Shown here: positions 2,361 to 25,565 of the stretch, in pieces
How positions within the stretch are numbered: the first letter of the stretch is position 1
Layout of the letters: every line of letters starts with the position of its first letter
Assembly (NCBI RefSeq): GCF_900114605.1
Contig: NZ_FOTP01000005.1
Span: 310,001 to 374,000, forward strand
Direction: 5' to 3'
Length of the DNA: 64,000 nucleotides
From: Bradyrhizobium sp. NFR13
Lineage (GTDB): Bacteria > Pseudomonadota > Alphaproteobacteria > Rhizobiales > Xanthobacteraceae
Position numbers and translations under genes: made by a program
Notes under the pieces: generated by a model
The model's input: the letters and a program-made list of their open reading frames with translations, nothing else
Told to the model about the DNA's origin: nothing
The model's database searches: none

Positions 2361-3434
2361 TTAGACACTTCGTTTTTTAGGACTAGACACTTCCGTTCGC
2401 TTTTTGATCGTCGCGATTCCGCCAGTTGCCAGCGTCGGTTGGTCGGCAGCAGCCGTATAACGGTCCAATTCCTTGGTGGTCTTGTGGCCCGACACAGAGG
2501 CCAACTGGCGCGCGCTGGCGCCGTTCTCGGCCATGACCCTCAGCACCGCCTTGCGCAGCCCGTGGGGCTTACAACGAGCGTCCAAGCCGGCTTGTTTGAT
2601 CGCCCGGCGCATCAGGAATGTCAGCCGGGCCCGCTGGATCGGACGGCCCATCTCGTCGCCGATCAACGAAAGCCCCTTGGACGGCGTGGCCTTCAAGACC
2701 GCGGCCAAATCCGGGTGGATAGGAATTTCCAACTCGGTTCCGGTCTTGTCCTGCTTGACCTTGATCCGGCCCTTCACGATGTCCCGGCGAGACATGCGCA
2801 CGACGTCGCCGCCACGCTGGCCGGTGTAAAAGAGTAGGGCATAAATCAGCCGCTCACGGGTACCGATGGGCCAGCGCGCCTCGAACAGCGCCATTTCCTC
2901 GTCGGTCCATGTATGTCGCGACCCGCCCTTGTAGGAGGTCAGCTTCTGCGCCAGCGGACTGACCTTTATCTGGCCCCGCTCGACGGCGCCGGCAAAGACT
3001 TTCTGTAGGACCGATTGCGTGAAATTGGCCATTCCAGGGGCTCGGGCTCCGATTCCCTCGATGATCTTCAAAATCTTGTCGCGCGGCATGTCGTGGGCGG
3101 CGCGGTGCCCATGGTCTTTTTTCAGCGGTTCCAGGGCGTAGCGATAGGCCTTCTTGGAAGACGGTTTCAGATTGGCAAAATCGACCGTTTGATAATAGGA
3201 CGCGATCAGAGCGCCGAACGTGCCGGTTGCTTGCGTCGTCGGCTGGGCGAGCGGAGCCGGCCGCGCCTCTGAATAGGCCTTGTAGGCCTCCATGAACTCA
3301 GGCGAACCGACCGGCAGGGGTAGGGGGCCGCCCTTGAAGCCCTTACGGCGATAATAGAGTCGCTGAATTCCGCAATTGTCCGTGTATTCCTTCACGTAGG
3401 GAATTTTGGCCATGCGCTGCCCCGGTGCTGGCAT
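2361..3434 (-). CDS. Tyrosine-recombinase phage integrase
   Basis: The 357-residue protein would catalyse site-specific integration and excision of the prophage. A SAM-like core-binding domain (about residues 70-165) precedes the catalytic domain. The catalytic set is visible: Arg207 in TGQRGGDV, Lys230, His291 and Arg294 in HGLR, His317 in SGHKT, and the nucleophile Tyr326 in DRYTAA. Its start overlaps the stop of the upstream HTH gene (ATGA), implying coupled translation. An internal ATG at residue 8 (MAKIP) is an alternative start. Its 3' end faces the host junction, as expected for int next to attL. Confidence 0.95.
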   Translation of the reverse strand: MPAPGQRMAKIPYVKEYTDNCGIQRLYYRRKGFKGGPLPLPVGSPEFMEAYKAYSEARPAPLAQPTTQATGTFGALIASYYQTVDFANLKPSSKKAYRYALEPLKKDHGHRAAHDMPRDKILKIIEGIGARAPGMANFTQSVLQKVFAGAVERGQIKVSPLAQKLTSYKGGSRHTWTDEEMALFEARWPIGTRERLIYALLFYTGQRGGDVVRMSRRDIVKGRIKVKQDKTGTELEIPIHPDLAAVLKATPSKGLSLIGDEMGRPIQRARLTFLMRRAIKQAGLDARCKPHGLRKAVLRVMAENGASARQLASVSGHKTTKELDRYTAAADQPTLATGGIATIKKRTEVSSPKKRSV

Positions 3435-3682
3435 CAGACGTCATCCCATGACGTGCCCAATGCCGGGGCATCTTCGCGCGGCAGAGCATCAAAAGCCACA
3501 TCCAGGTCCCGGATGTCCCACAGCTTCCGGCCCTTAATCAGCCGCGGCGGCTCGATCTTGCCGGCCGCGCGCATCTCGTCGAACGTCCCAGCACCCACGC
3601 CCAGATACATTGCCGCTTCCTCTCGGGACAATCCCCGGCGAGGCAGCGCAACGGCGCGGATCTTGGACAGGGCCCGGCTCAT
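3434..3682 (-). CDS. Small helix-turn-helix protein, candidate excisionase
   Basis: The 82-residue basic protein contains an AlpA/MerR-type winged-helix segment: SREEAAMYLGVGAGTFDEM, then a short wing with KGRKLWDIRDLD. Such proteins directly upstream of, and translationally coupled to, an integrase often act as recombination directionality factors or int regulators. Start and stop overlap both neighbours by ATGA junctions, so it is in the same leftward message as the methyltransferase gene and int. The excisionase role is inferred from position; the HTH is visible. Confidence 0.75.
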   Translation of the reverse strand: MSRALSKIRAVALPRRGLSREEAAMYLGVGAGTFDEMRAAGKIEPPRLIKGRKLWDIRDLDVAFDALPREDAPALGTSWDDV

Positions 3683-4995
3683 GCGCCGCCACCCGGTTGT
3701 TGCGGAGGGAGCGCTGGGGCCCTCACCTTGAAAACCGTCGTGTTGATGTTCGTCCCGCTCTCGCTGAACGAGCCGACAGGGAGATCACTCCACGGCCCGT
3801 CGTACCGGCTGTGGCTGCCGAGATCTTCGAGTAAGCCGTGATCGTACCGGGCCGTCACGGGCAGGATTGCTACCAGCGTGCCTTCGGGCTTGAGGAAGTC
3901 GAAGGCGTGACGAACGTGTTTGGCGTAGTGCTTGCCGTAGAAAGGCGGGTTCATGACGACAAAATCGAAGTCGCGGGTAGGGACGGTTTCCAGGAAGTTG
4001 GCCGTCAGAACATTGTGACCCTTGGCGCGGCATAGAGCGGCGCGGCTGACGTCAACCTCGATTCCGTAGGGCTTCGCCTTGGCTTTCCGCAGGGCGTCCA
4101 TGAAACGCCCATCGCCGCATGACGGTTCGAGCACGCGCTTGCCCGCCAAGCCGTAGATGTCGCTCAGCACCCGCTCAACGGTTGCCTCGGGGGTCGGGTA
4201 ATACTGCAGATCCTTAGAGACAGCGGTCGATTCCGCTTTTTTCGTCGGCTTCTCGTCCGTGGTATCCGGCAGAACGTCGCCGTAATATTCGGCCAGCGCC
4301 TTGTTGATGTCATTGAGGGTGCCCGACTCGAAATGCAGATGGCCGTTGCCATTCTTGAAGGTCTTGAGCTGCACGCCGCGCGTCGCGCTGTAGCCATGCA
4401 GCACCAGCTTTTCTAGTTCGTCATACGTGGTAAGCGGGCGTCCCTGGTACGCTGCAAGGGCGTTCAGCATGGCCTGAATCTGGTTCTTGCCGTAGCTGTC
4501 CCACCCGCCAAATCCTCTCATGACCACGCGCTTAGGCAGCCCGGCGACGCCGATCTTGACCTTGTCGTGGCTCTTGAAAGCTTGGTCGAGGCCGCAGAAT
4601 ACCTCGGCAAGCCCGCGCAGGATATTGCCGCGCGGATCAAGAATGTATTTTCCGAAAGTGCCGCGGATGTTATCGATTGTGAAGGGCGGGGGCGACGCCA
4701 TCGCCTGCTCAAACAGCTTCTTGTCTGTCGGGCTGGCGATCACATCGATGTTAAGGCCACCATAGATGTGCAGCCAAGCCGAGGTGAGCAGGTTGCTCTC
4801 TAATGTGCTCTCCCAAACGTGGCCGACGTTGATCTGCTGCCGGCCGTAAGTTCCGCCGACTGTGGCCGCCATCTTGACTTCGTTGCCTGCGTCTTCGAAA
4901 GCCTGGACAGAGGCCTTAAGGGCAGCTTTCTTCGTATCGTACTCAGCCACGACATCTGAAAGGCTGCGCTGCAGGGTTGGTACATGCTTATTCAT
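3679..4995 (-). CDS. DUF4942-type protein with C-terminal DNA methyltransferase domain
   Basis: The 438-residue product has two parts. Residues about 1-250 resemble the DUF4942 domain found in phage and plasmid proteins. Residues about 265-435 are a class I SAM-dependent methyltransferase with motif I EPSCGDG (290-296) and the amino-methyltransferase motif NPPF (349-352). The NPPF tetrad is typical of enzymes methylating exocyclic amino groups of adenine or cytosine in DNA. No restriction partner lies nearby, so a solitary modification role (evading host restriction or altering regulation) is likelier than a restriction system. The target sequence is unknown. Confidence 0.85.
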   Translation of the reverse strand: MNKHVPTLQRSLSDVVAEYDTKKAALKASVQAFEDAGNEVKMAATVGGTYGRQQINVGHVWESTLESNLLTSAWLHIYGGLNIDVIASPTDKKLFEQAMASPPPFTIDNIRGTFGKYILDPRGNILRGLAEVFCGLDQAFKSHDKVKIGVAGLPKRVVMRGFGGWDSYGKNQIQAMLNALAAYQGRPLTTYDELEKLVLHGYSATRGVQLKTFKNGNGHLHFESGTLNDINKALAEYYGDVLPDTTDEKPTKKAESTAVSKDLQYYPTPEATVERVLSDIYGLAGKRVLEPSCGDGRFMDALRKAKAKPYGIEVDVSRAALCRAKGHNVLTANFLETVPTRDFDFVVMNPPFYGKHYAKHVRHAFDFLKPEGTLVAILPVTARYDHGLLEDLGSHSRYDGPWSDLPVGSFSESGTNINTTVFKVRAPALPPQQPGGGA

Positions 4996-5303: not shown

Positions 5304-5575
5304 GGCTGTGCCTCGGGAGTCTCGAGAGTTGGAGGGGTGAGCGCGGATGTGTGACGCACGCAAAGACCGGATTGCTCAACGATGGCGTAGCCTTCGCTGT
5401 CGCTATCGAGTTCGCAGACCTTTACACCTGGGCCAAAACCAAAAGGTGCCTTGCGGATGTGCTTGCAACTCGCGCATGACTGGCCTGCCTGCCGAAGCAC
5501 CGATAGAGCCGTCATCATCTCGCTTCGCTTCTGTTCGCGCTTCGCGATGCGTCGCTGTCTGGCGGCTGGAGTCAT
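5300..5575 (-). CDS. Hypothetical Cys-containing protein (91 aa)
   Basis: The basic N-terminus (MTPAARQRRIAKREQ) is followed by a CASCKH pair and further Cys residues at KVCEL and LCVRH. This gives a four-Cys pattern compatible with a small zinc-binding fold. The start at 5575 overlaps the stop of the upstream methyltransferase-like gene by ATGA. Function is unknown; position in the leftward early operon suggests a host take-over or regulatory role, but nothing shows this directly. Confidence 0.65.
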   Translation of the reverse strand: MTPAARQRRIAKREQKRSEMMTALSVLRQAGQSCASCKHIRKAPFGFGPGVKVCELDSDSEGYAIVEQSGLCVRHTSALTPPTLETPEAQP

Positions 5576-6069
5576 GATCCACCCTCCGTCGCTGATAATG
5601 ATTGGGTGGTCGGTGCCGGATTGAAGCAGTCGATCCGACGCAGCATCACCCACGAAGTGCCGCGTTGCTGATGTGTAACGCCATGGCCAAACAGCGGCTC
5701 CCAATACGGGGCCAGCAGGCCAAGGATGCCGGTCAGCGTGCGCGAGTGTTCATTCCACTTGAAGGCCATTAGGCCATCGTCGCGGACGACGCGATGAGCT
5801 TCCTTGGCAGTCTCAGCGACGATCTCGCGGATCTGTTGGGCCGTCCAGTGACCGTAGCTGCGCACCATGTTGCCGGTCGCCGCATTGTTCTTATGCGGCG
5901 GATCGAACACGATCAGGTCGAAGTCGTCGGGAAGCCCCGCCGGCAGCGCGCGGGAGTCCGCAACGATGTCCGGCTTTACCTCGGGGCGAATGTCGATGAA
6001 TGTCGCGCACGGGTGCGCTTTGTTAAACCAAACAGCCCGATTGCCGGCGGAAACGTCGAGCACCTTCAT
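5572..6069 (-). CDS. Small SAM-dependent methyltransferase-like protein
   Basis: The 165-residue protein starts with a motif-I-like segment (MKVLDVSAGNRAVWF) and carries DPPH at residues 56-59 within LIVFDPPHKN, the D-P-P-(Y/F/H) signature of DNA amino-methyltransferases. It is shorter than most such enzymes and lacks an obvious target recognition domain, so it may be a minimal phage DNA methyltransferase or a relative acting on another substrate. It overlaps neighbours on both sides by 4 bp. With the DUF4942 enzyme this gives two methyltransferase-type proteins in the same leftward operon. Confidence 0.75.
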   Translation of the reverse strand: MKVLDVSAGNRAVWFNKAHPCATFIDIRPEVKPDIVADSRALPAGLPDDFDLIVFDPPHKNNAATGNMVRSYGHWTAQQIREIVAETAKEAHRVVRDDGLMAFKWNEHSRTLTGILGLLAPYWEPLFGHGVTHQQRGTSWVMLRRIDCFNPAPTTQSLSATEGGS

Positions 6070-9190: not shown

Positions 9191-9215
9191 GTCTCTCTCC
9201 GATTTGATGGGAGAG

Positions 9216-9266
9216 AGCGTAGTAGGAAAAATTCGACTGGTCAATACGGAAGTAGGAAAAATTCGA
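9216..9266 (-). promoter_or_regulatory. Leftward early promoter with two repressor operators (PL/OL-like)
   Basis: The 12-mer GGAAAAATTCGA occurs at 9225-9236 and 9255-9266, 30 bp apart. On the minus strand a -35 hexamer TTGACC (9239-9244) is followed by exactly 17 bp and a weak -10 (TACGCT, 9216-9221), so the first operator fills the promoter spacer. The same 12-mer with the same placement occurs at the cro-side promoter near 14.7 kb. This is the layout expected when one repressor shuts both early operons. Confidence 0.75.
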
Positions 9267-9363
9267 CGATGTAATTTGGCCGTGACACCGAATCAATGAC
9301 TCGACTCCAGCTTAGACCTGAGTCCTTAATGAGAACATAAAAAGAACATGCGACGGGGCGTCG

Positions 9364-9567
9364 GTGGTGCAGGTGGTCTGGATTGAATGTCGTGATTGCG
9401 GCCACGGCCGCCGGTTGAAAGCCCCAAAGGAAGCGACCCGGGAATACTGGTCTCGCTTCTATTGCAGCCTCTGCGTCGATGACGGCGGCCTCGGCCGTCG
9501 GGTCAGGATTTCAACTCTGGACACTACCTGCGGCCCAGCAGACGGCTTACGCCGTACAGCTTCTTAA
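9364..9567 (+). CDS. Small putative zinc-ribbon protein (67 aa)
   Basis: The ORF starts with GTG and encodes CRDCG and, about 23 residues later, CSLCVDD, a two-pair Cys arrangement typical of a zinc ribbon. It is basic and short. There is no strong ribosome-binding site, so the start is uncertain. It lies on the plus strand just outside the leftward operon. Function unknown. Confidence 0.4.
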   Translation: MVQVVWIECRDCGHGRRLKAPKEATREYWSRFYCSLCVDDGGLGRRVRISTLDTTCGPADGLRRTAS

Positions 9568-12796: not shown

Positions 12797-13009
12797 CTAC
12801 GTGGCGTCCTTGCCGGCTCGAAGTGTTTCCCTCGACTTCCGAACACCAACCAATGGCTTCCCCAATTCACGGGCCTTGCTTTGCACTGCGGTCGCAGGCC
12901 TGCCGAGTGCGGCTGCAGCTCGGAGGACCGTTGCGCCGCTATCGGCGAGACTGATCAACCGAGCGATATCTTCGGGGGTCCAGGTTTTAGTAATCAAGCG
13001 TCTCGCCAT
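12797..13009 (-). CDS. Small Myb/HTH-like DNA-binding protein (70 aa)
   Basis: The ATG at 13009 gives MARRLITKTWTPEDIARLISLADSG, a SANT/HTH start of the type also seen in GcrA (TWTPED...L..L...G.S). A second helix follows with GRPATAVQSKARELGK. It is very basic. It is the last of three leftward genes downstream of the repressor-side region. It probably binds DNA; target unknown. Confidence 0.65.
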   Translation of the reverse strand: MARRLITKTWTPEDIARLISLADSGATVLRAAAALGRPATAVQSKARELGKPLVGVRKSRETLRAGKDAT

Positions 13010-13017
13010 GGCATCGC

Positions 13018-13197
13018 TCAATGAATTTTTCGGTATCCGGCTTCGGTCAGTTTCATTTGGTCGTTCACGACTTCAACGAACCCCATTTCGAGCAACTCGC
13101 TAAGTTGGTCTTCTGTGATCGGCGACAGCTTTAGTCGACCCGCGTAAATGTCGCGGAGTGTCCAAGCGAGATCGATGTCATCTTTCCAGTTTCTCAC
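13018..13197 (-). CDS. Small winged-helix-like protein (59 aa, GTG start)
   Basis: The reading frame from GTG at 13197 encodes WTLRDIYAGRLKL, then a helix-turn-wing pattern (ITEDQLSELLEMGFVEV, MKLTEAGYRKI) that resembles the end of a MarR-type winged helix. It ends 8 bp before the start of the next leftward gene and begins 10 bp after the stop of the 223-aa gene, fitting a compact operon. The start codon lacks a clear Shine-Dalgarno. Confidence 0.5.
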   Translation of the reverse strand: MRNWKDDIDLAWTLRDIYAGRLKLSPITEDQLSELLEMGFVEVVNDQMKLTEAGYRKIH

Positions 13198-13927: not shown

Positions 13928-14632
13928 TCAGCCTAAGAGGTCCCTCGGTTTTAATACACGATAGATCTCTTTGACCTCGCCGGCGTCAAATTCGACTTCC
14001 TTGGCGGGGTTAAACTGCTTGCACGTCACCCGGAGGCCTGTTCGTCGAACAAGCTGCTTCACAAAGCTCTTGCCAGCCTGCCCCTCCGTCTCCGGATAAA
14101 GTTCAACGACCACAAAGTCATCTATAGCCGCGTGCGCCCGCTGCACGTAAATCAGCTCCCCATCCTCGTATCGTGGCCACATGCTTGTTCCGGAAACGGT
14201 AAGGGCAAACACATTTTTCGCGCGGCGGATGCCCGGCGGGCGGCGGACCAGCCCGTCAATTTCACCGTTAAAGTGAAACTCGTCATCAGCTCCTCCTGAT
14301 GCAATCCCGCGGACCTCGACGTCGAAGTCGCCCAGCTGGGATAGGGCAGGGGCGTTTTCCGTGACTTGGACGTTGCTGATTTCCGGTCCTGATGGACGAA
14401 TGAGTTGGGGGCTAGGTCCAGCCACCTCATTCCGAAGCTCTTCCTCGGTCCAATCGAGCCCTTTAGCGATACCGGGGTGGGCGTCGCGCTTCACTGTCTT
14501 CTTTCTGCCGTTGAGCAGATCGCGAAGGTAGCTTCGCTCTAAGCCGCCCGTGACCGCGGCCGTGATCGGGCTGCGACCAAGTTCTTGCAGTCGCGCCCGA
14601 ATTCGCTCTGTCAGTTCAGCGTCGGTGATCAT
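13928..14632 (-). CDS. Prophage repressor with S24/LexA-type self-cleavage domain (CI-like)
   Basis: The 234-residue protein has an N-terminal helix-turn-helix (SPITAAVTGGLERSYLRDLL) and a C-terminal S24 domain with catalytic Ser150 (SGTSMWP) and Lys192 (SFVKQL). A plausible cleavage site is near residues 111-112 (IASGG). It should bind the 12-bp operators at 9.2 and 14.7 kb and be inactivated during the SOS response. I chose the ATG at 14632 over an upstream TTG because the longer leader is unlike the family. The gene is divergent from the cro-position gene. Confidence 0.92.
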   Translation of the reverse strand: MITDAELTERIRARLQELGRSPITAAVTGGLERSYLRDLLNGRKKTVKRDAHPGIAKGLDWTEEELRNEVAGPSPQLIRPSGPEISNVQVTENAPALSQLGDFDVEVRGIASGGADDEFHFNGEIDGLVRRPPGIRRAKNVFALTVSGTSMWPRYEDGELIYVQRAHAAIDDFVVVELYPETEGQAGKSFVKQLVRRTGLRVTCKQFNPAKEVEFDAGEVKEIYRVLKPRDLLG

Positions 14633-14670
14633 GTCGGACTTATCCGACGCGGCCACGCAAATTTCCAATG

Positions 14671-14720
14671 GGATTTATTCGACGATTCTGCTTGAAAAGT
14701 AGGAAAAATTCGATCATGCT
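14671..14720 (+). promoter_or_regulatory. Rightward early promoter with operator pair (PR/OR-like)
   Basis: Operator copies are GGATTTATTCGA (14671-14682) and GGAAAAATTCGA (14702-14713), 31 bp apart, between the divergent repressor and cro-position genes. A -35 hexamer TTGAAA (14692-14697) is followed by 17 bp and CATGCT (14715-14720) as a weak -10, so the second operator fills the spacer exactly as at the leftward promoter. Transcription would start around 14727, only 1-2 nt before the ATG at 14729. Confidence 0.75.
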
Positions 14721-15764: not shown

Positions 15765-16391
15765 ATGCGCATAGCATCGGCGATCACAGCGCGTTGCGCA
15801 AAAAGCGGGGGTGCCGAAACGGGTATCGATTTCTCCGTTTTGGGTATCGAAAAGAACATCAACTCCGCGCTCACTGAGGCCATCAAGATCAAATGGCCCT
15901 TGAAAACATGGGCAATTCTTTGCGAAGTGCTTTGGGACACGAAGCGCATCGAGATGACCGAGCGCGTTGCGAAGCACCGCCTTTCGAACACGCGTGACTA
16001 CTCGGTCGAAGAACTGCAGGCGATGCTGCAGTCAGAAGACGGCCTCGACTTCCTAGCGGTGCTCATGGCCGACGCCCAGCCGAAGTGGTGGTGGTGGGCC
16101 AAGCAGGTGATGACGGTCGCGTCCATTAAGCGCCGCCGAGCCGAAGACGAGCAAGAAATCCTGAAACTGGAAACGAGTGCACCTGCTGAGACCGGTGCGC
16201 GTCGTCGCATCAAAGGTGCCCTCGATGCCAACCGAAATATCAAGGCCGCTGTCGACCGGGCTGAAACTGCCCTGGGCTTTCAGCGCCCGGACATGGCTGG
16301 CCGAAATGCTGATGCGTCGAGCAACGGCGCTGGCGTATCGGGTCGCGCCGTGGCTCCAGCCAAGCGAGCCTACGCGGGGAGGGGCCGATGA
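15765..16391 (+). CDS. Hypothetical early phage protein (208 aa)
   Basis: The middle segment IKWPLKTWAILCEVLWDTKRIEMTERVAKHRLSNTRDYS looks like a conserved helical module, followed by a Trp-rich patch (KWWWWAKQ) and a basic, disordered tail. It is the fourth gene of the rightward early operon and overlaps the gcrA-like gene by ATGA. The Trp-rich surface with basic tail is compatible with protein-nucleic acid contact. No family name can be given. Confidence 0.6.
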   Translation: MRIASAITARCAKSGGAETGIDFSVLGIEKNINSALTEAIKIKWPLKTWAILCEVLWDTKRIEMTERVAKHRLSNTRDYSVEELQAMLQSEDGLDFLAVLMADAQPKWWWWAKQVMTVASIKRRRAEDEQEILKLETSAPAETGARRRIKGALDANRNIKAAVDRAETALGFQRPDMAGRNADASSNGAGVSGRAVAPAKRAYAGRGR

Positions 16392-16957
16392 CGAAGCCGA
16401 TGGAAGGCCGTGACATGCGCGGCGACCCGAAGTGGACGCCTGAGCAGGATATCGAATTGCGCCGTCTGCTAGAGCTTGGACGCTCATATACGGCGGTTGC
16501 CGAGCAGATCAACGCGGACTTCGGCACGACCTTCTCACGCAACGCCGCAATCGGCCGCGGTCATCGCTTGGGCATCAAGACCGACCGCCGCGGGTTGCCC
16601 GGCGCCGGGCGCAAACCCACCGGCCGCAAGCCGCGCGCGGTCAAGCCGTCCGCCAAACCGCTGCCGTTCAAGGAGCCGGAGCCACTTGAACTGGCGCCGC
16701 CGTTCGCGGGATCACTGAGCCTTGAGTTCGCAGACCTGCGCCCGTTCAGCACTGAGCAGGTGAATCAGTGTCGTTTCCCAGAAGGTGAAGGACCGGCATT
16801 CCTTTACTGCGGCAATCCTACGGCGCCAGGTGCGTCGTGGTGCGGACACTGTCACGAGAAGGCTCATCAGCCGGACAGCCGACCGAAATTCAGGGCCACC
16901 AGAAGTTTGCGCGGCCAAGGAGCAGCGAATTTCAGCCGGAGCTTTGCGGCCGCATGA
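16388..16957 (+). CDS. gcrA: GcrA-family cell-cycle transcription regulator, phage-encoded
   Basis: GcrA is the alphaproteobacterial cofactor that binds sigma-70 RNA polymerase and, in Caulobacter, reads GANTC methylation to activate cell-cycle promoters. Here the N-terminal HTH is clear (WTPEQDIELRRLLELGRSYTAVAEQIN, then SRNAAIGRGHRLGI). After a basic Pro/Lys-rich linker comes the C-terminal polymerase-binding type domain with QCRFPEGEGPAFLYCGN and the ASWCGHCHEKA Cys/His cluster. At 189 residues it has the family length. It lies in the early operon, so it would act soon after induction or infection. Whether it replaces or antagonises host GcrA is unknown. Confidence 0.9.
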   Translation: MTKPMEGRDMRGDPKWTPEQDIELRRLLELGRSYTAVAEQINADFGTTFSRNAAIGRGHRLGIKTDRRGLPGAGRKPTGRKPRAVKPSAKPLPFKEPEPLELAPPFAGSLSLEFADLRPFSTEQVNQCRFPEGEGPAFLYCGNPTAPGASWCGHCHEKAHQPDSRPKFRATRSLRGQGAANFSRSFAAA

Positions 16958-17625
16958 TTCACCCAATCATCATCGCTGTGATGCGCAGCTCCAACATCTC
17001 GGAAGAGATGTTCTTTGGCCCGCGTCGCTGGAAGGAGCTTGTGGCGGCGCGTGTTCAGGCGATTCACGATCTGACTGCGTCCGGCTTGAGCCAGGCAGCG
17101 ATCGCCCGTGCCATGCGCCGTGACCACGCCACTGTCAATTATTGGCAGAAAGCCAAGACTAGAGAGAAGCGGTCGGCATACTACAAGGTCTACCACGGTG
17201 CTCGGCGAATTCTGAAAGGCTGCCCTCCGTGCATCGTCGAGAAGACGACCGAGGAGCAGCGTCGGCAATTGCTGGATCTCCACGCAGCGGGCCGCAAAGC
17301 CGAAATGCGGGAGCTACAGAAGGATATCGGGGTTGGCGTCGACTACACCCGGCGTTTGGCCGGGAGGCGCAGAGGGAAGCTCCCTCGTGCCGAAAGGGTT
17401 AAGCAGGAGAATATCGCCAAGTTGAAGCAACCGCGCCCGTCGCCGGTGCTGGTCCGGCCGCAGCGCGTGGTCGCACTTGAGCCTACGCCGCGAGAACTAG
17501 CGCATGCCGCCATGATGGAAGATGCGCGCCGCCGCGAGATGGCTCCTCGGTCCGTAACAGCCTTGCTGTTTGGCGATCCTCCGCCCGGTTTTTCAGCCCT
17601 TGATAGAAGGGAGACGCGCGCATGA
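16954..17625 (+). CDS. DNA-binding protein with DnaA domain IV-like helix-turn-helix (223 aa)
   Basis: Start at the ATG overlapping the gcrA stop gives MIHPIIIAVMRSS. Residues about 28-55 read LTASGLSQAAIARAMRRDHATVNYW, close in pattern to the DnaA box-recognition helices (IG..F..RDH.TV). The rest is basic, with no AAA+ domain, so it is not an initiator by itself. Its C-terminal 24 residues (APRSVTALLFGDPPPGFSAL... DRR) are nearly repeated at the end of the next protein. It probably binds DnaA-box-like sites, for replication control or gene regulation. Confidence 0.65.
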   Translation: MIHPIIIAVMRSSNISEEMFFGPRRWKELVAARVQAIHDLTASGLSQAAIARAMRRDHATVNYWQKAKTREKRSAYYKVYHGARRILKGCPPCIVEKTTEEQRRQLLDLHAAGRKAEMRELQKDIGVGVDYTRRLAGRRRGKLPRAERVKQENIAKLKQPRPSPVLVRPQRVVALEPTPRELAHAAMMEDARRREMAPRSVTALLFGDPPPGFSALDRRETRA

Positions 17626-17984
17626 ACGTGAAATGGACGGAAGATCAGGACGCGCTGGCCCGCCGGCTGTTTCAGATCGAGGCTTCGGAAGAGACCTTCC
17701 GTGAGCAGCTTGGTCGAACCAAGCGCGCTGCGCGGTTGCGCCTGCGTTATCTCGATGATGCGGGCTTCCGACTTGCTGCGAAGGAGCGCAAAGCGACCGC
17801 GCGGTACGCGGCGCCAAAGAAGATCGTCAGCATCGCATCGCGCCCGCAGCCCAGCGGCGATCAACTTGAAACAGCGCTTCACCGGAACTATGCGCCGCGC
17901 TCGGTTACAGCCTCGCTGCTCGGTGACCCGGCGCCCGGTCAGTCTGCCCTCGATCGTCGCAACACAGCGGAGGCCCGTCTCTAA
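17622..17984 (+). CDS. Small basic Myb/SANT-like protein with shared C-terminal motif (120 aa)
   Basis: The N-terminus (MNVKWTEDQDALARRLFQ) is a SANT/HTH-like start related in style to GcrA. A basic middle follows, and the C-terminus carries APRSVTASLLGDPAPGQSAL then DRR, matching the tail of the preceding protein. The start overlaps the preceding stop by ATGA. The shared tail suggests a common partner or targeting signal. Function otherwise unknown. Confidence 0.6.
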   Translation: MNVKWTEDQDALARRLFQIEASEETFREQLGRTKRAARLRLRYLDDAGFRLAAKERKATARYAAPKKIVSIASRPQPSGDQLETALHRNYAPRSVTASLLGDPAPGQSALDRRNTAEARL

Positions 17985-18337
17985 TGGAATCCCCCGGCGC
18001 ACTATTTGATTGGGCTGAAGGCGCGCGCGCTCGTGACGCGGGCATGATCGAAGCCTCCTTTGCGGAGACGCTGTCCGGCTCTGACTATCCAGAGGCATTG
18101 GAGGCTGCAATCCGTCATGTCGCGATTCACCAGTGCACCGTGCATATCGACGATGTGCTGCCTTTGCTGAAAGTGAAGCCTCTACACCCGAACTCGGCTG
18201 GCTGGGTGTGGACCAAGCTGATCGCGGACAAGGTGATCGTCGAGACGAACGAGTCGTTGCGCTCAAAGGACCCGAAGAAGCGTCGCCATCGGTATCCCGT
18301 CTACGCCTCCGGCCTGTTCTCCGGGAGGCGTGCTTGA
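17984..18337 (+). CDS. Hypothetical early phage protein (117 aa)
   Basis: The ATG overlaps the preceding stop (TAATG). The protein has a helical N-terminus and a compact-looking C-terminal domain (IDDVLPLLKVKPLHPNSAGWVWTKLIADKVIVET) that looks like a winged-helix fold. A DNA-binding role is possible but unproven. Confidence 0.6.
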   Translation: MESPGALFDWAEGARARDAGMIEASFAETLSGSDYPEALEAAIRHVAIHQCTVHIDDVLPLLKVKPLHPNSAGWVWTKLIADKVIVETNESLRSKDPKKRRHRYPVYASGLFSGRRA

Positions 18338-18339
18338 AT

Positions 18340-18603
18340 TCAATCCAAACGCAGATCGTAGATCTCCCGCAGTTTCTTCTCAGTTGCCGCCACAGCTCTT
18401 GCGACGTCGCGGTACGTCCGCTCGTCTTCCGCCGGATTGCCGCCCGTCCTACGGACATCCGCGATCGTCCAATTCGCACCGGCAGGGCCTTGGGGTTCAT
18501 GGCGGATGGTGAGTTCGGTGACGCATTCGCATCCGTGGCACGCTCTGATTTCAACAAGTGCCGTGCGTTCCAACGCGGATTTCGTGAGCAGCGTCTTATT
18601 CAT
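18340..18603 (-). CDS. Small leftward protein with CxxCxC motif (87 aa)
   Basis: This gene runs against the surrounding rightward operon. The ATG at 18603 gives MNKTLLTKSALERTALVEIRACHGCECV, with a CHGCEC cluster that could bind metal, then a helical C-terminus. Its stop lies 2 bp from the stop of the previous plus-strand gene. It may be expressed in the lysogen or may act as antisense control on the operon. Function unknown. Confidence 0.5.
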   Translation of the reverse strand: MNKTLLTKSALERTALVEIRACHGCECVTELTIRHEPQGPAGANWTIADVRRTGGNPAEDERTYRDVARAVAATEKKLREIYDLRLD

Positions 18604-18686
18604 CGGCAACCTTCCATCGTCTTTAGCGAGGATAGGTACGGCTCAAGCACTTGTCACCATGGCATCGGACAGAGGGGTGGTGCCTC

Positions 18687-18986
18687 ATGAGGGCGAAAGA
18701 GGTACTCACAACCGCCATGGAACTCGTCGGTGGCGACCGTAAGGAAGCCTATGGCGACGTATTGCTCGGGCTCGATCGCATTGCGCTGATGTGGAACGCG
18801 CTGCTGACCATTGCCGGCAAAGCGCCGAGACAGCCGATCAACGCGCATGACGTGGCGCAAATGATGGTCTGCCTGAAGCAGGCGAGGGCATACACGGGTC
18901 CCCTGCGCATCGACAACCACATCGACGCGGCCGGATGGTCAAGCGTTGCTGGCGAAGCTGCCAGCCGTGTTTCGGAGGCGTCATGA
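18687..18986 (+). CDS. DUF6378-family phage protein (99 aa)
   Basis: The sequence MRAKEVLTTAMELVGGDRKEAYGD followed by IALMWNALL and NAHDVAQMMVCLKQAR matches the DUF6378 family, small proteins common in phages of Rhizobiales and other groups. GDRKEAYGD is the conserved motif. The biochemical role is not established. The start follows GAGGGGTGG, a good ribosome-binding site, and the stop overlaps the next gene. Confidence 0.8.
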   Translation: MRAKEVLTTAMELVGGDRKEAYGDVLLGLDRIALMWNALLTIAGKAPRQPINAHDVAQMMVCLKQARAYTGPLRIDNHIDAAGWSSVAGEAASRVSEAS

Positions 18987-19189
18987 CCGAAGCATCGAAG
19001 AAGATGGTACCGACGGGCTATCAGGTGCTTCAGGTCCATGACGCCGATCTGCAGGGACTGTACGACGCGGGCTGGGCTTACGTCGAACCCGCCGAGGTAC
19101 CGGGCTTCAGCATCATTTCCTGGGAGAGCGACAAGCCGCCGGTCGTGCCGCTGTCGTTCGCCCGCGCACCTGCGCCGGAGGGCGTCTGA
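18983..19189 (+). CDS. Hypothetical early phage protein (68 aa)
   Basis: The ATG overlaps the previous stop (ATGA). The product is a small beta-rich looking protein (GYQVLQVHDADLQGLYDAGWAYV) ending in a Pro-rich tail. It is followed after 1 bp by the winged-helix gene. Function unknown. Confidence 0.55.
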   Translation: MTEASKKMVPTGYQVLQVHDADLQGLYDAGWAYVEPAEVPGFSIISWESDKPPVVPLSFARAPAPEGV

Positions 19190-19190
19190 C

Positions 19191-19493
19191 ATGTCGATCC
19201 AACCAACGCTTCCGAATGAATGGCAAGTCCACGGGGCGCAGAAGCGCATCCTGCTGATGCTTCTGGAGGCGCCAGGCGGCGCCATCACGCACCAGGAATT
19301 GCTGTTTGTCACCGGCACCCGCGCGAAGCCGCAGAGCCAGCGGGTGATCGTGCGCCGTCATATCCGTGAAATGCGGGAGAAGCTCGGTCCGCTTGGAATC
19401 GTCATCAACGCTCGCTGGGGCGAGGGCTATGAGATGCCCGCGCCGTCTCGCGACATCGTCAGAACCGCCATTCAGAAGAGGCTAGCAGCATGA
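19191..19493 (+). CDS. Winged-helix DNA-binding protein (100 aa)
   Basis: The product is a lone OmpR/PhoB-like winged helix: [22 protein letters not shown], then [24 protein letters not shown] and the wing [11 protein letters not shown]. There is no receiver domain, as in several phage early regulators. The start lies right after the preceding stop, and its stop overlaps the gapR start by ATGA. It likely regulates phage or host transcription. Confidence 0.8.
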
Positions 19494-19786
19494 CATTCGA
19501 CGGCAGCAACACCGGCGTCAGCGCCTCATCGGTCCTCGACGACCAGGCCACGCACAGCTTCGCCAAGGACCAGCTCAAGGCGATCGTAGAGCGGATTGAG
19601 CGGCTGGAAGAGGAAAAGAAGACGATCTCCGACGACATCAAGGACGTTTACGGCGAAGCCAAAGGCAACGGCTACGACGTGAAGGCGCTGCGCACTATCA
19701 TCCGCATGCGCAAGCAGGATGCCAACGAACGTGCCGAGCAGGAGACGGTGCTCGAGACCTATTTGCAGGCATTGGGAATGCTGTGA
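19490..19786 (+). CDS. gapR: GapR-family (DUF2312/UPF0335) nucleoid-associated protein, phage-encoded
   Basis: The 98-residue protein matches GapR closely: [53 protein letters not shown] and a C-terminal [10 protein letters not shown]. GapR is an alphaproteobacterial DNA-binding protein that encircles overtwisted AT-rich DNA, aids topoisomerases at the replication fork and affects cell-cycle progression. All helices of the family are present. It is embedded in the phage replication operon with ATGA/TGATG overlaps, so it probably serves phage DNA replication or redirects host topology control. Confidence 0.93.
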
Positions 19787-20334
19787 TGGAGCGGATCGCA
19801 CTTTCCAAAAAGACCCGGTTCGAAGTTTTTAAGCGAGATGGCTTCCGTTGCGTCTATTGCGGCGCCACGCCGTCGGAAACCGTGCTGCTTGAGGCTGACC
19901 ACATCCACCCGGTCGCTGCGGGCGGCACGAACGATATAGACAATCTCGTCACCGCCTGTGACGCCTGCAATCGCGGCAAGGGCGCGCGGCTGCTCACCAG
20001 CGTGCCGCCAACTCTCGAAGAGAAGGCGCTGGAGGTCGCGGAGCGGGAAGCGCAGATCCGGGCCTATTACGAGATCCTGGACGCCAAAAAGCAGCGCAAG
20101 GACGATGAACTGTGGTCGATCGCAGACATCTACATGGAGCGGTTCGGAGACGACAACATCCTCCGAACGCGCCTCGCCAGCATCGGCACATTCCTGGATC
20201 GCCTTGACTATCACGAGGTGGTCGAGGCCATGGAAATCGCCACCCGGAAGATGAGCAGTCGCGTGCCGGCGTTCAATTATTTCTGTGGCATTTGCTGGCG
20301 CAAAATCAAAAGAGCCAACGGAGAAGACGTCTAA
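19786..20334 (+). CDS. HNH endonuclease with C-terminal helical domain (182 aa)
   Basis: The HNH fold is clear: RFEVFKRDGFRCVYCGATPSE, LEADHIHPVAAGGTND, LVTACDACNRGKG, with two CxxC zinc pairs and the catalytic His. A helical C-terminal domain of about 110 residues follows (LRTRLASIGTFLDRLDYHEVVEAM). The start overlaps the gapR stop (TGATG). Position before the replication protein suggests a role in phage DNA metabolism such as recombination or replication. Confidence 0.88.
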   Translation: MERIALSKKTRFEVFKRDGFRCVYCGATPSETVLLEADHIHPVAAGGTNDIDNLVTACDACNRGKGARLLTSVPPTLEEKALEVAEREAQIRAYYEILDAKKQRKDDELWSIADIYMERFGDDNILRTRLASIGTFLDRLDYHEVVEAMEIATRKMSSRVPAFNYFCGICWRKIKRANGEDV

Positions 20335-21300
20335 ATGGCCCGCATCCGCAGTATTCATCCGCCGATTTTCACAGACGAGGGCTTTGTGTCGCTCTCCATG
20401 GCTGCGCGCGTGCTGCTGATGGGTATCTGGACGGAATCTGACGACCACGGCGTGTTCGAATGGAAGCCGGTCACTCTCAAGATGCGCGTCATGCCAGTCG
20501 ATAACGTCAACATTCCGGAGCTGCTCGCGGAATGCGAGGCCGCAGACGTAATAAAGCGCTTCATAGATGGCAAGAGTTACGGACTGGTTCGTAACTTCTG
20601 CAGGTATCAGAAGCCAAAAAAACCGAACTACGTCCACCCCATCCCTCCTGAGTTGTTCCTTTATGCCGGTTTAAATGCCGACGGTTCGTTACCGGTAACC
20701 CACCGGTCAGGTACTGGTACGGGAAAGTCTCCGCAGAGGGAGGAGGGAGGAGGGATGATGGAGGAGGAATCGGAAGATGAAAAAGAGGAGGGAGAGAAGC
20801 CCGCTCCCTCGAAATTGAAATTGGTCTCGGAAGAGAAGGCGATCCCAATCGATCTGAACTACGAACCGTCGGATCGAGCGGTCGAATACGCGTATAGCCT
20901 CGGCATGAAAAAGGCGGAACTGAGTTCCGAGCTTAGCAAATTCATCGCCAAGGCCATGACCGTGCGCAAGGTCAGCTTCAATCCGGATATGGATTTCAAG
21001 CTGTGGTGCGACCGCTGGCTGGAGTTCAAGCGAGAAAAGAACCCCGACTGGAGGCCGGTGCCACCGCCCGTGCCTGAAATAGATCGCAGCGATTGGAAAA
21101 TCGTCGTCGAGGGCACGCAGGAGCATACGTGCTGGAACATCGTGCGTCGTGAACGCAACGAGATGCCGCTGTTCCTCTGCAAACAGGTCGGTCCGGACGG
21201 GACCGTGTACGAGCGAGCCGCCAAGTGCCCGACGCTCTACCCGCCAGGTTTCAACGACTTCGGCGAACGGATTCCCCCATCAGCAGAGGATGCGGCATGA
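20335..21300 (+). CDS. Phage replication protein (initiator/replisome-organiser-like, 321 aa)
   Basis: The N-terminus MARIRSIHPPIFTDEGFVSLS followed by AARVLLMGIWTESDDHGVFEW is the winged-helix start typical of phage replication proteins that bind the phage origin. An acidic linker rich in Glu (about residues 135-155) separates it from a C-terminal domain (NPDMDFKLWCDRWLEFK) of the kind that contacts helicase or helicase loader. No helicase gene is seen nearby, so host DnaB is probably recruited. It starts immediately after the HNH gene. Confidence 0.7.
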   Translation: MARIRSIHPPIFTDEGFVSLSMAARVLLMGIWTESDDHGVFEWKPVTLKMRVMPVDNVNIPELLAECEAADVIKRFIDGKSYGLVRNFCRYQKPKKPNYVHPIPPELFLYAGLNADGSLPVTHRSGTGTGKSPQREEGGGMMEEESEDEKEEGEKPAPSKLKLVSEEKAIPIDLNYEPSDRAVEYAYSLGMKKAELSSELSKFIAKAMTVRKVSFNPDMDFKLWCDRWLEFKREKNPDWRPVPPPVPEIDRSDWKIVVEGTQEHTCWNIVRRERNEMPLFLCKQVGPDGTVYERAAKCPTLYPPGFNDFGERIPPSAEDAA

Positions 21301-22682: not shown

Positions 22683-22822
22683 CCCGAGATCCGCTATTCC
22701 TGCGGGAAAGGCCAGCACCTGGTAACTGATGTGCCACCTTAGACAAACTTCGATATTGATGAGTGTCGAATTGTATTTGTCATCTAGACCTTTCCTTGAG
22801 TTGGTTGTTGTCAGCTAGATCC

Positions 22823-24349
22823 ATGCAGCTGCTTAGCAACCGAGCGGTACAGTACCTCCGTATGTCGACCGACATGCAGGAGAGCTCGATCGCCATACAG
22901 GCGGAAGCAATCGCGCTGTTCGCCGCACGTCACGGCTTAGCCGTCGTTCGTAGCTATGAGGACCTGGGACGAAGTGGGTTGAAGTTTGATCGCCGGCCAG
23001 AGCTTCAGCGTCTCGTCGCGGATGTGCGGTCTGGGAGCGCCGATTTCGGAACGATCCTGATTTACGACGTTAGTCGGTGGGGCCGGTTTCAAGATACGGA
23101 TGAGAGTGCCTACTACGAATATGTCTGCCGTTCCCATGGTGTGACCGTGGAATATTGTGCCGAGCCGTTCAGAAACGATGGAAGTCTTTCTGCTTCTATC
23201 CTGAAGACATTGAAACGAGCCATGGCGGGTGAATTCAGCCGGGAGCTCTCCGCGAAAGTATTCGCGGGGCAAGCGAAGGCGGTGGCCCGTGGATTTCACC
23301 GAGGATCGGTCGCGGGCTACGGACTGCGAAGATGCCTTATCGATAGCCTAACCAATGAACGGACTGTGCTTCGAGACGGGCAACGCAAGAGACTCTCCAC
23401 TGATCACGTCATTCTGGTGCCAGGTCCCGACGACGAACGTGAAGTAATCCTGAAGATATACGGTTGGTTCCTGAACGAGAAACTATCGCTCTCTGCGATT
23501 TCCAGGCGGCTGAACCAAGACGGAACTCTGAACTCGAGCGGCCGAAGCTGGAACGATGTTTCGGTCCGCGAGATCTTGACGAACGAGAAGTATATCGGTG
23601 CGGCTCAGTTCAACAAGACATCTCGGAAGTTGGGAACGCCTTCGATGAGAAACCGGAGGGAGAGTTGGATAGAGACGGCTGATGCGTATGAGGCTCTTGT
23701 TCCGAAAAGTGTGTTTCTCAAGGCTCGCGGTCAGCTTGCCTTTAACGCCCGTGCTTATACCGACAACGAGCTTTTGGATTCCTTATCGGCGATCTGGTGC
23801 GCTAAAGGCGGAATTACAGCGGCTACAATCGGCGCGTCTCCAGTGACGCCTTGCGTGAACGCCTACAAGGAGCATTTTGGGGGGCTTGCTGCTGCGTATG
23901 AAAGAATAGGATATCGGCCAGCGTTCCGTAGCGGGCACGCGACGCAATCCCGTATCATCATCACGAGCCAAATGGTCGCTCAATTGAAGGCGAGCGGTTG
24001 TTCGGTCGAGTGGCCATCGGGCAGTTCTCAGATAATCGTGAACGAAGATCTGATTATTGGCGTCGTGGTCGTGTCAGCCCGGCCTATGTGCGGAAAGAAC
24101 CAGTGGCAGGTCAACCGTTCAAGCTGGAGAAAGCCGGACGTGATCGTGCTCGCGCGCATCGCAGATCACAGCGTAGCGGTAGAGGATTACACGTTTGTGC
24201 CCGCGCTCTTTTTGACCAATCCAACTTGGCTCACTTTCACGCCTCGGCGGCTGAGCCGAATGAAGGCGTTTCGGGCACGCTCGCTCGATCCGTTGTTGCG
24301 AATTTGCTCTTGCAGCCCAATAGGAGAGCTGGATGCCCCGAACCCGTGA
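22823..24349 (+). CDS. Large serine recombinase (resolvase/invertase family)
   Basis: From the ATG at 22823 the protein has the resolvase N-terminal domain with catalytic Ser15 in YLRMSTDMQ, then YDVSRWGRF and other conserved motifs. The recombinase domain follows (GSVAGYGLRRCL, LNQDGTLNSSGRSW...VREILTNEKYIGAAQFN), and a long C-terminal region with a Cys-containing segment. At 508 residues it belongs to the large serine recombinases that integrate and excise DNA without a host tRNA target. An upstream in-frame start (22763) is possible. Its stop overlaps the start of the next ORF by 17 bp. Confidence 0.92.
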   Translation: MQLLSNRAVQYLRMSTDMQESSIAIQAEAIALFAARHGLAVVRSYEDLGRSGLKFDRRPELQRLVADVRSGSADFGTILIYDVSRWGRFQDTDESAYYEYVCRSHGVTVEYCAEPFRNDGSLSASILKTLKRAMAGEFSRELSAKVFAGQAKAVARGFHRGSVAGYGLRRCLIDSLTNERTVLRDGQRKRLSTDHVILVPGPDDEREVILKIYGWFLNEKLSLSAISRRLNQDGTLNSSGRSWNDVSVREILTNEKYIGAAQFNKTSRKLGTPSMRNRRESWIETADAYEALVPKSVFLKARGQLAFNARAYTDNELLDSLSAIWCAKGGITAATIGASPVTPCVNAYKEHFGGLAAAYERIGYRPAFRSGHATQSRIIITSQMVAQLKASGCSVEWPSGSSQIIVNEDLIIGVVVVSARPMCGKNQWQVNRSSWRKPDVIVLARIADHSVAVEDYTFVPALFLTNPTWLTFTPRRLSRMKAFRARSLDPLLRICSCSPIGELDAPNP

Positions 24350-24809: not shown

Positions 24810-25565
24810 ATGCGGATTTTCTCAGTCTCTTTGTTCGTTGCCTTGATCTCATTTCCGGCACACGCACTCGTTGGAGGCGCAAGTGTCGATACTGATGTGA
24901 TCAGTCGAAGTGTCATCACCATCGTTGGTTCGCGCGGCAATTTTTGTTCGGGCGCGCTGATCGCGCCCACGCTGGTCCTTTCTGCGGCACATTGCGTGTC
25001 GCCTGGTGCCAGCTACAAGATCGTGCTTTACGATGCGCAAAAGCAGCCGCAATTGCTTGCGGTTAAGCGCGTTGCCGATCATCCAGATTTCAATGCGCAG
25101 GGCATCAAGGCGCACCGCGCCAGCGCCGACGTCGCGCTGCTGCAACTCGCCGAGCCATTGCCGGGCAAGAGCGCTCTGCCGCTCGGTGTGCCCACGGAGC
25201 CCTTCGCTGCCGGGCAGAATTACATGGTGGCCGGCATCGGCGTTGCCGAGCGCGGCGACGGCAAGAGCGGTGGCACCGTGCGCGCGGCGTCCCTGGTCTC
25301 CACCAGCCATCCCGGCAAGTTGCAGATAAGGCTGGTCGATCCCGCGACCGAAAATAAACGAGACGGTCTCGGCGCCTGCACCGGCGACAGCGGCGGGCCT
25401 GTGCTGCAACAGCAGAATGGCCGCAATGTCGTGATCGGCGTGGTGTCTTGGTCCACCGGCGCGAAGAGCAGTTCCGGTTGTGGCGGTCTCACCGGAGTGA
25501 CGCCGCTGACGCTGTATCGCGACTGGATCGTGCAGACCGCGCGCGCTTGGGGCACGCCGCTCTGA
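24810..25565 (+). CDS. Secreted trypsin-like serine protease (S1 family)
   Basis: A signal peptide (MRIFSVSLFVALISFPAHA) precedes a chymotrypsin-fold protease with a complete triad: His61 (LSAAHC), Asp107 (SADVALL), Ser194 (TGDSGGP). Cys residues are placed for disulphides, so it is probably periplasmic or secreted. At 251 residues it is a minimal S1 protease. It is unlike any phage gene nearby and resembles chromosomal trypsin-like genes of Bradyrhizobium relatives. Function in the cell is unknown. Confidence 0.92.
   Translation: MRIFSVSLFVALISFPAHALVGGASVDTDVISRSVITIVGSRGNFCSGALIAPTLVLSAAHCVSPGASYKIVLYDAQKQPQLLAVKRVADHPDFNAQGIKAHRASADVALLQLAEPLPGKSALPLGVPTEPFAAGQNYMVAGIGVAERGDGKSGGTVRAASLVSTSHPGKLQIRLVDPATENKRDGLGACTGDSGGPVLQQQNGRNVVIGVVSWSTGAKSSSGCGGLTGVTPLTLYRDWIVQTARAWGTPL

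Follow-up and report, generated by a model that had tools for sequence, protein, structure and literature searches.

Does a temperate phage that carries cell-cycle regulators of the alphaproteobacterial type read the methylation clock of its host? The question is raised by a prophage in the genome of Bradyrhizobium sp. NFR13, analysed here in a window of 64,000 nucleotides (the whole stretch of DNA that was examined, G000:C13:310001-374000). By its Pfam and PHROGs matches it is a temperate tailed prophage: besides a tyrosine integrase and a CI-type repressor, it has early genes read rightward, genes for the two terminase subunits and one for a tail protein. Its early genes include members of the GcrA and GapR families, and the initial annotation, which saw in them a kit for taking over the host cell cycle, described this gene set largely correctly. 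We give an even chance to the reading that they form an early control and replication module of the phage, wired into the CcrM/GcrA methylation circuit of the host. The link to this circuit is plausible because GcrA and GapR recur in phage early regions and because the control DNA of the prophage contains a rare, conserved cluster of GANTC sites. GcrA is known to read GANTC sites, and GANTC is the motif of the host CcrM. The early genes concerned are the following:

16388-16957, plus strand: phage GcrA, with an N-terminal DNA-binding domain and a C-terminal domain of the sigma70-interacting type (PF07750, 58.1 bits, cut-off 26.9)
16954-17625, plus strand: helix-turn-helix (HTH) protein that has a signature resembling DnaA domain IV (RDHATV) and, at its C-terminus, a peptide here called the SALD tail (core 17572-17604; HTH_38, 28.2 bits, cut-off 27)
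17622-17984, plus strand: small SANT-like protein that also carries the SALD tail, as detected by profile (core 17922-17954)
19490-19786, plus strand: phage GapR (PF10073, 118.9 bits, cut-off 22.6)

The assignment of the first gene to the GcrA family is upheld by its Pfam score and by phmmer, which aligns it with the complete GcrA of Caulobacter (7ye1_G, E 4.8e-07) across both the DNA-binding and the sigma-interacting domains. Residues R51, G56, R60, C128, C141 and C152 are invariant across 15 aligned phage GcrAs, the window copy included. A Foldseek search with the model of the protein (pLDDT 71.8) gave no match reaching E 0.001; 7ye1_G, which is GcrA in a transcription complex, came first with a weak E of 0.029, followed by a domain of human Timeless and by 5yix_B, the sigma-interacting domain of GcrA with sigma70 domain 2, also weak (E 0.83). 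The NCBIfam equivalog of chromosomal GcrA (sig70cofacGcrA) gives the phage protein 36.8 bits, far under the cut-off of 280. Judged by its sequence, the phage protein is a member of the GcrA family whose score falls short of the chromosomal equivalog; the host's own gcrA is located on contig 6. Phage-encoded GcrA has been known since 2012. Close relatives of the window copy were not found in viral or genome contigs by back-translated patterns, which gave two weak matches in phage records, whereas the Pfam GcrA profile did find GcrA genes in other contigs and genomes. Two records labelled Synechococcus phage match GcrA, and these labels look doubtful for alphaproteobacterial genes. The archaeal control genome, Sulfolobus acidocaldarius, also has a GcrA family match over cut-off, which is unexpected for an alphaproteobacterial regulator.

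The GapR assignment is likewise confirmed (NCBIfam PRK13694, 136 bits, cut-off 94), while the NCBIfam equivalog of Caulobacter-type GapR, scored for the phage copy only, gives 99.6 bits, under its cut-off of 140. The host gapR is located on contig 8. The phage and host genes, aligned over 86 codons, have 29 differences in 258 bases, which fall in 25 silent codons and one replacement codon, and 85 of the 86 residues are identical; in the 77-codon core the synonymous divergence (dS) is 0.545 and the replacement divergence (dN) 0.0196. The best named match of the phage protein is that of T. robiniae LMG 26467, whose GapR core is the same as the host's own at 77 of 77 residues, so that the host genome probably belongs to the genus Tardiphaga; the Bradyrhizobium copies in the compared set are identical to the phage copy at 63-68 of 77. 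This pattern suggests that the phage gapR came from a Tardiphaga-like donor and has probably been under strong purifying selection since then. Trees also place the window GapR near Tardiphaga hosts, with low support. Among the other genomes compared (G-numbers are labels of compared genomes, G000 being the host genome, and L-numbers those of loci), second GapR copies in G055, G063 and G053 are identical to the window copy at 71-74 of 77 residues with dS above 1.1, and further copies match it at 59 (G051), 55 (G058), 49 (G066) and 33 (G062) of 77; five of the 57 sequences were excluded from the core comparison by length. In G058, tandem GapR matches were found at G058:C25:153775-154264, the first of them with an internal stop codon.

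Binding of overtwisted DNA is a property of the GapR family, and the phage gapR lies directly 5' of the HNH and replication initiator genes. With 85 of 86 residues identical to those of the host protein, it seems better explained as additional GapR that serves the replication of the phage than as a means of takeover. GapR-like genes are widespread in phages: they occur in 155 of 50,697 phage records, among these the Caulobacter phages Jess A, RapA and SR18, and in at least 567 IMG/VR stretches. Some matches are in records labelled Microcystis phage, a host label that looks doubtful for alphaproteobacterial genes. A paper of 2025 claimed the first phage GapR, in Erythrobacter phage R34L1 (PMC12185513); in view of the 155 phage records, this claim is true for the name only.

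GcrA and GapR genes are repeatedly found together. Three of the 18 genus genomes (G000, G051 and G063) have a second GcrA match that exceeds the cut-off, each with a GapR gene on the same strand 2.5 to 4 kb downstream. In a sample of 50 of the 80 GapR-bearing viral contigs kept, GcrA scores over cut-off in 12 and at E<=1e-3 in 15. With a profile built in this analysis, both genes were found on 16 distinct contigs, including the window, and on 15 of these they share a strand, GcrA being upstream in nine and downstream in six. In Agrobacterium phage Atu_ph08, gapR, annotated as hypothetical, ends 3 bp before the GcrA gene, and a published table of genes from Sinorhizobium prophages includes both GcrA and UPF0335 (PMC12429752). 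Parts of the module are thus present in published phages (adjacent GcrA and gapR genes in Atu_ph08, GapR in Caulobacter phages), which makes it testable. A literature search found no paper combining GcrA, GapR and phage.

The second line of evidence comes from the control DNA of the prophage, where the following features were found:

9222-9267, plus strand: pair of 16-base repeats, probable repressor operators of the leftward promoter (in shuffles, a mean of 0.20 matches at <=3 mismatches)
9290-9324, no strand: four GANTC sites within 35 bp (9290, 9298, 9303 and 9320), adjoining the operator pair, recognised by cluster count and conservation
9333-9347, no strand: GAAC-N7-GAAC, a LexA-type direct repeat, kept in four of five phages by eye
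9364-9567, plus strand: small zinc-ribbon-like open reading frame (ORF) right of the element, from its translation and homologues (zinc ribbon by eye, two CxxC)
14683-14689, plus strand: single GANTC site, CGATTCT, between the repressor and the early genes, fitting YGAKTCK by eye (motif from PMC7987155)
14699-14714, plus strand: third repeat copy with one mismatch, between the repressor and the early genes

The repeat, GTAGGAAAAATTCGAC, is present in two copies at 9222-9267, and the third lies beside the repressor gene; the positions and similarity of the copies make them probable repressor operators. The adjoining GANTC cluster is rare. In 400 kb of host DNA there are no clusters of three or four sites within 40 bp and none of four within 60 bp, three of three sites within 60 bp, and three of four within 100 bp. 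Among eight palindromes tested in the window, GANTC alone forms a cluster of four in 60 bp, the overall GANTC density being 2.14 per kb in the prophage and 1.73 per kb in the host sample. Three more groups of four GANTC within 160 bp are found in the window (11331, 28900 and 61645), against four such groups in 400 kb of host DNA. The cluster is also conserved: in an alignment of the element from five phages (four genus genomes and one viral contig, the latter read by eye), sites 1 and 2 are kept in all five, site 3 in four and site 4 in three. The element is present in four of the 18 genus genomes (G000, G051, G055 and G063), all with more than one GapR match. On the minus strand, GANTC site 1 reads TGATTCG, the extended motif proposed for activation by Caulobacter GcrA (PMC7987155). 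The GAAC-N7-GAAC box is the direct repeat of alphaproteobacterial LexA (PMC3323433); there are 11 such boxes in 400 kb of host DNA and two in the window. The element may serve either the ORF at 9364 or the leftward operon. As a general trait of GcrA-bearing phages, GANTC clusters are unsupported, such viral loci being no richer in them than others.

The third component is the SALD tail. The HTH protein and the SANT-like protein encoded next to it end in one common peptide, TAxxxGDPxPGxSALDRR. A degenerate pattern for its core, GDPPPGxSALD, was found in 72 IMG/VR stretches, and the core pattern matches once in the window, whereas 100 shuffles gave no match. Over the loci examined, GDPxPGxSAL[DE] occurs in 73 distinct ORFs, whose end is no more than 10 residues away in 47 and no more than 30 in 69. 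Conservation of the core itself is no evidence because the search pattern selected it; outside the core, threonine at -5 is found in 56 of 64 non-redundant members, the two window proteins having it too beside their C-terminal GDPxPGxSAL[DE], and two arginines further upstream are kept in 47 and 46 of them. The heads of these 64 proteins, as assigned by Pfam, include Myb-like domains (17 and 12 matches, which may overlap), HTH_38 (four), HTH_23 (four), Bac_DnaA_C (three) and sigma region 4 (two), with single matches to CopG/ribbon-helix-helix, MerR and GcrA. At E<=0.01 the widest family covers 17 of 64 members in Pfam and 11 of 64 in PHROGs (match positions were seen for the first member), so the tail is not covered by any library family. 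Short tailed ORFs without an obvious DNA-binding head are present in L237, L244 and L286, and in L236 the motif is far from the C-terminus of its ORF.

The tail is associated with GapR. Among 50 tail-bearing contigs drawn from the 72 stretches, 23 have GapR over cut-off, and all 25 distinct tail-GapR pairs in the loci examined are on one strand, the tail lying 0.28-5.4 kb downstream in 22 and upstream in three (the window's two included). In Bradyrhizobium phage ppBdUSDA122-1 a near-exact tail is carried by a protein annotated as SANT/Myb, followed by HTH, HNH and large terminase genes. A tblastn search with the window tail gave matches in two of 50,697 phage records at E<=10, a 30-residue query being insensitive. 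The tail was also considered as a core feature of the host, which the data do not support: its profile matches at least seven places in at least five of the 18 genus genomes and at least two of 299 phylum genomes, one of these being the window's own, with 150 candidates scored per genus genome and 24 per phylum genome, so that misses are possible. Five of the seven genus-genome matches are within about 4 kb of GapR or a GapR fragment. An obligatory phage-encoded partner was likewise rejected, as no family reached half of 46 tail-bearing loci, a weak result for loci that are fragments; the commonest families were a tailed family (22), GapR (20) and a replication initiator recognised by eye (19). 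A literature text search for the tail letters returned nothing relevant by title and start of abstract. By eye, GDP is common to the tail and the sigma-interacting domain of GcrA; this likeness was dropped.

The HTH protein had been described as having a DnaA domain IV-like HTH. Its HTH stands, with HTH_38 over cut-off, and the DnaA label is weaker, as Bac_DnaA_C remains below its cut-off of 31.5 (26.9 bits, or 28.9 in the genome search, where host DnaA scores 111.8). No PDB match at E<=0.001 was obtained in a fold search with the model of this protein (pLDDT 74.5, pTM 0.37), in which the last 50 residues have block mean pLDDT values of 74-91 and short predicted helices around the GDPPPG turn. 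By the precedent of GafA, discussed below, a role in transcription appears likelier for this protein than origin binding.

Taken together, these features suggest how the module may operate. DNA damage would relieve the repressor and LexA, and GcrA, the phage's and perhaps the host's too, would act with sigma70 at methylated GANTC sites in the phage control region. The different heads of the tailed proteins would pick DNA sites and the one docking peptide would recruit a common, probably host, partner, for which RNA polymerase is the first guess. The extra GapR would handle overtwisted DNA ahead of phage replication forks. Phage DNA would be the main target, with host effects secondary. For the tail we propose, tentatively and with somewhat less than even confidence, that interchangeable early DNA-binding proteins of alphaproteobacterial phages, with SANT/Myb, DnaA-like, ribbon-helix-helix and other heads, share one uncatalogued docking peptide at the C-terminus, about 40 residues long and ending in TAxxFGDPPPGxSALD[RKQ][RK]; that this peptide brings in a single host partner, for which RNA polymerase is the likeliest candidate; and that phages use it together with GapR, and some of them with GcrA too, in a cell-cycle-gated system of transcription and replication. 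The SALD tail may be a new module.

Several observations weigh against this reading of the module. The element is missing from seven further genus genomes in which GapR matches more than once, and in G055, which has it, the single GcrA match is of the chromosomal type. GcrA-bearing viral loci contain 1.59 GANTC clusters of three in 60 bp per 100 kb, against 1.93 in other loci, and 0 against 0.5 clusters of four in 100 bp. Neither the element nor the early promoter gave a consensus sigma70 site in a promoter scan. PMC7987155 found that Brevundimonas GcrA does not prefer the extended motif. The 25 tail-GapR pairs cannot be counted as independent, since close relatives among the phages contributed part of them. 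We know of no partner of the SALD tail.

The alternative that survives best, although we consider it rather unlikely, is that host CcrM and host GcrA alone read the GANTC cluster as a timing switch of the prophage, and that phage GcrA and GapR work elsewhere, GapR for example in late transcription like DsbA of phage T4. The element of G055, in a genome without a second GcrA, agrees with this, as does an operon of an apparent prophage in B. subvibrioides that needs host GcrA (PMC7987155), an example of GcrA dependence in what looks like a prophage; DsbA, moreover, has been described as homologous to GapR and as possibly recruiting RNA polymerase (PMC7824862). However, phage GcrA is present in three of the four element-bearing genus genomes (G000, G051 and G063), and gapR here lies with replication genes.

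Less likely still is that the shared tail serves as a tag for degradation or in oligomerisation, or is left over from gene duplication and fusion, rather than being a docking site. In favour of this, its presence in two adjacent genes of the window makes a local duplication possible, and short helices are predicted in it. Against this, the tail is attached to several unrelated heads in many phages, its core serine is encoded by both of two unrelated codon sets, TCN (56) and AGY (17), and the core lies no more than 30 residues from the end in 69 of the 73 ORFs, although a tag is still compatible with all three observations.

The least probable is the host takeover of the initial annotation, in which the host chromosome is the main target of phage GcrA and GapR, which would force replication-competent transcription and shift replication timing, perhaps with a new methyl mark: the two are indeed host cell-cycle and nucleoid proteins, and such a role for phage GcrA was proposed by the phiCbK authors (PMC3556154), but the rare GANTC cluster sits in the phage's own control DNA and its sites are those of the host CcrM rather than of a new mark. 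The data support neither a reprogramming of host transcription or replication timing nor a methyl mark specific to the phage.

The remaining features of the prophage that were characterised are:

2361-3434, minus strand: tyrosine integrase (PF00589, 70.9 bits)
3679-4995, minus strand: protein with DUF4942 and a methyltransferase domain, NPPF motif (PF13708, 98.1 bits; DNA methyltransferase PHROGs)
5572-6069, minus strand: short DNA methyltransferase-like protein, DPPH motif (phrog_954, E 7.3e-27)
13928-14668, minus strand: CI-type repressor with an S24 peptidase domain (PF00717, 32.2 bits; phrog_4, E 5e-19)
18340-18609, minus strand: ORF within the early region (homologue on the minus strand of the related prophage L222, E 6.4e-07)
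18687-18986, plus strand: DUF6378 protein (PF19905, 73.8 bits, cut-off 27.1)
19191-19493, start about 19191, plus strand: lone winged-helix (Trans_reg_C) protein (26.7 bits, cut-off 26.2; homologues in L223, L227, L006 and L007)
19783-20334, plus strand: HNH endonuclease-like gene directly 3' of gapR (PF01844, 53.4 bits)
20335-21300, plus strand: replication initiation protein (phrog_1408, E 2.9e-28)

The leftward operon contains an HNH gene and, as had been noted from the sequence, two methyltransferase-like genes; the latter are supported by PHROGs matches and, by eye, by the NPPF and DPPH motifs, and the Pfam scan gave no match over cut-off for the protein encoded at 5572-6069. The early genes do not form the one chained operon that had been described, the chain being interrupted between 18337 and about 18687 by the minus-strand ORF, whose homologue in L222 likewise lies on the minus strand, between the GcrA and DUF6378 genes. 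The lone winged-helix regulator exceeds its cut-off, but barely. Where two GcrA-style SANT proteins had been proposed, the product of 17622-17984 is SANT-like, with no match at E<=1 in the Pfam scan, and the other SANT-like ORF (12797-13021) lies on the opposite, minus strand. Besides its tyrosine integrase, the prophage encodes a second recombinase at 22763-24349, a serine recombinase with Resolvase and Recombinase domains, and a trypsin-like protease gene at 24810-25565 lies between the early and terminase genes.

If the early genes are read as a control and replication module, an old conjecture can be put to the test, namely whether alphaproteobacterial phages read the host methylation clock. 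The region 9200-9370, where repressor, LexA-type and GANTC sites meet, is a compact target for a reporter. If the tail is a docking peptide, it would offer phage regulators a new and general means of connecting to a single host machine.

Each part of the module has relatives in known systems. The phiCbK-like Caulobacter phages (PMC3556154) and Atu_ph08, with gp5 (PMC6630229), also encode GcrA, with the same suggested role in replication-related transcription; the GANTC control element, the SALD tail and the link to GapR, which are features of the window, are not described in the available text of these papers. Erythrobacter phage R34L1 (PMC12185513) likewise has a phage GapR, thought to be host-derived, whereas the window GapR is almost identical to the protein of its own host. 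GafA of Rhodobacter capsulatus (PMC9638019) uses a DnaA-like DNA-binding domain in the transcription of phage-type genes and also has an omega-binding region and DUF6456, and split versions of it are found in Hyphomicrobiales; the window HTH protein differs in having no DUF6456 match in the Pfam scan and in carrying the SALD tail. The methyltransferase of Sinorhizobium phage phiLM21, reported to have CcrM-like specificity, is also a phage gene touching the GANTC circuit, but the window methyltransferases match other families. The parts of the module are thus of known kinds, and their combination with a GANTC/LexA control element is new.

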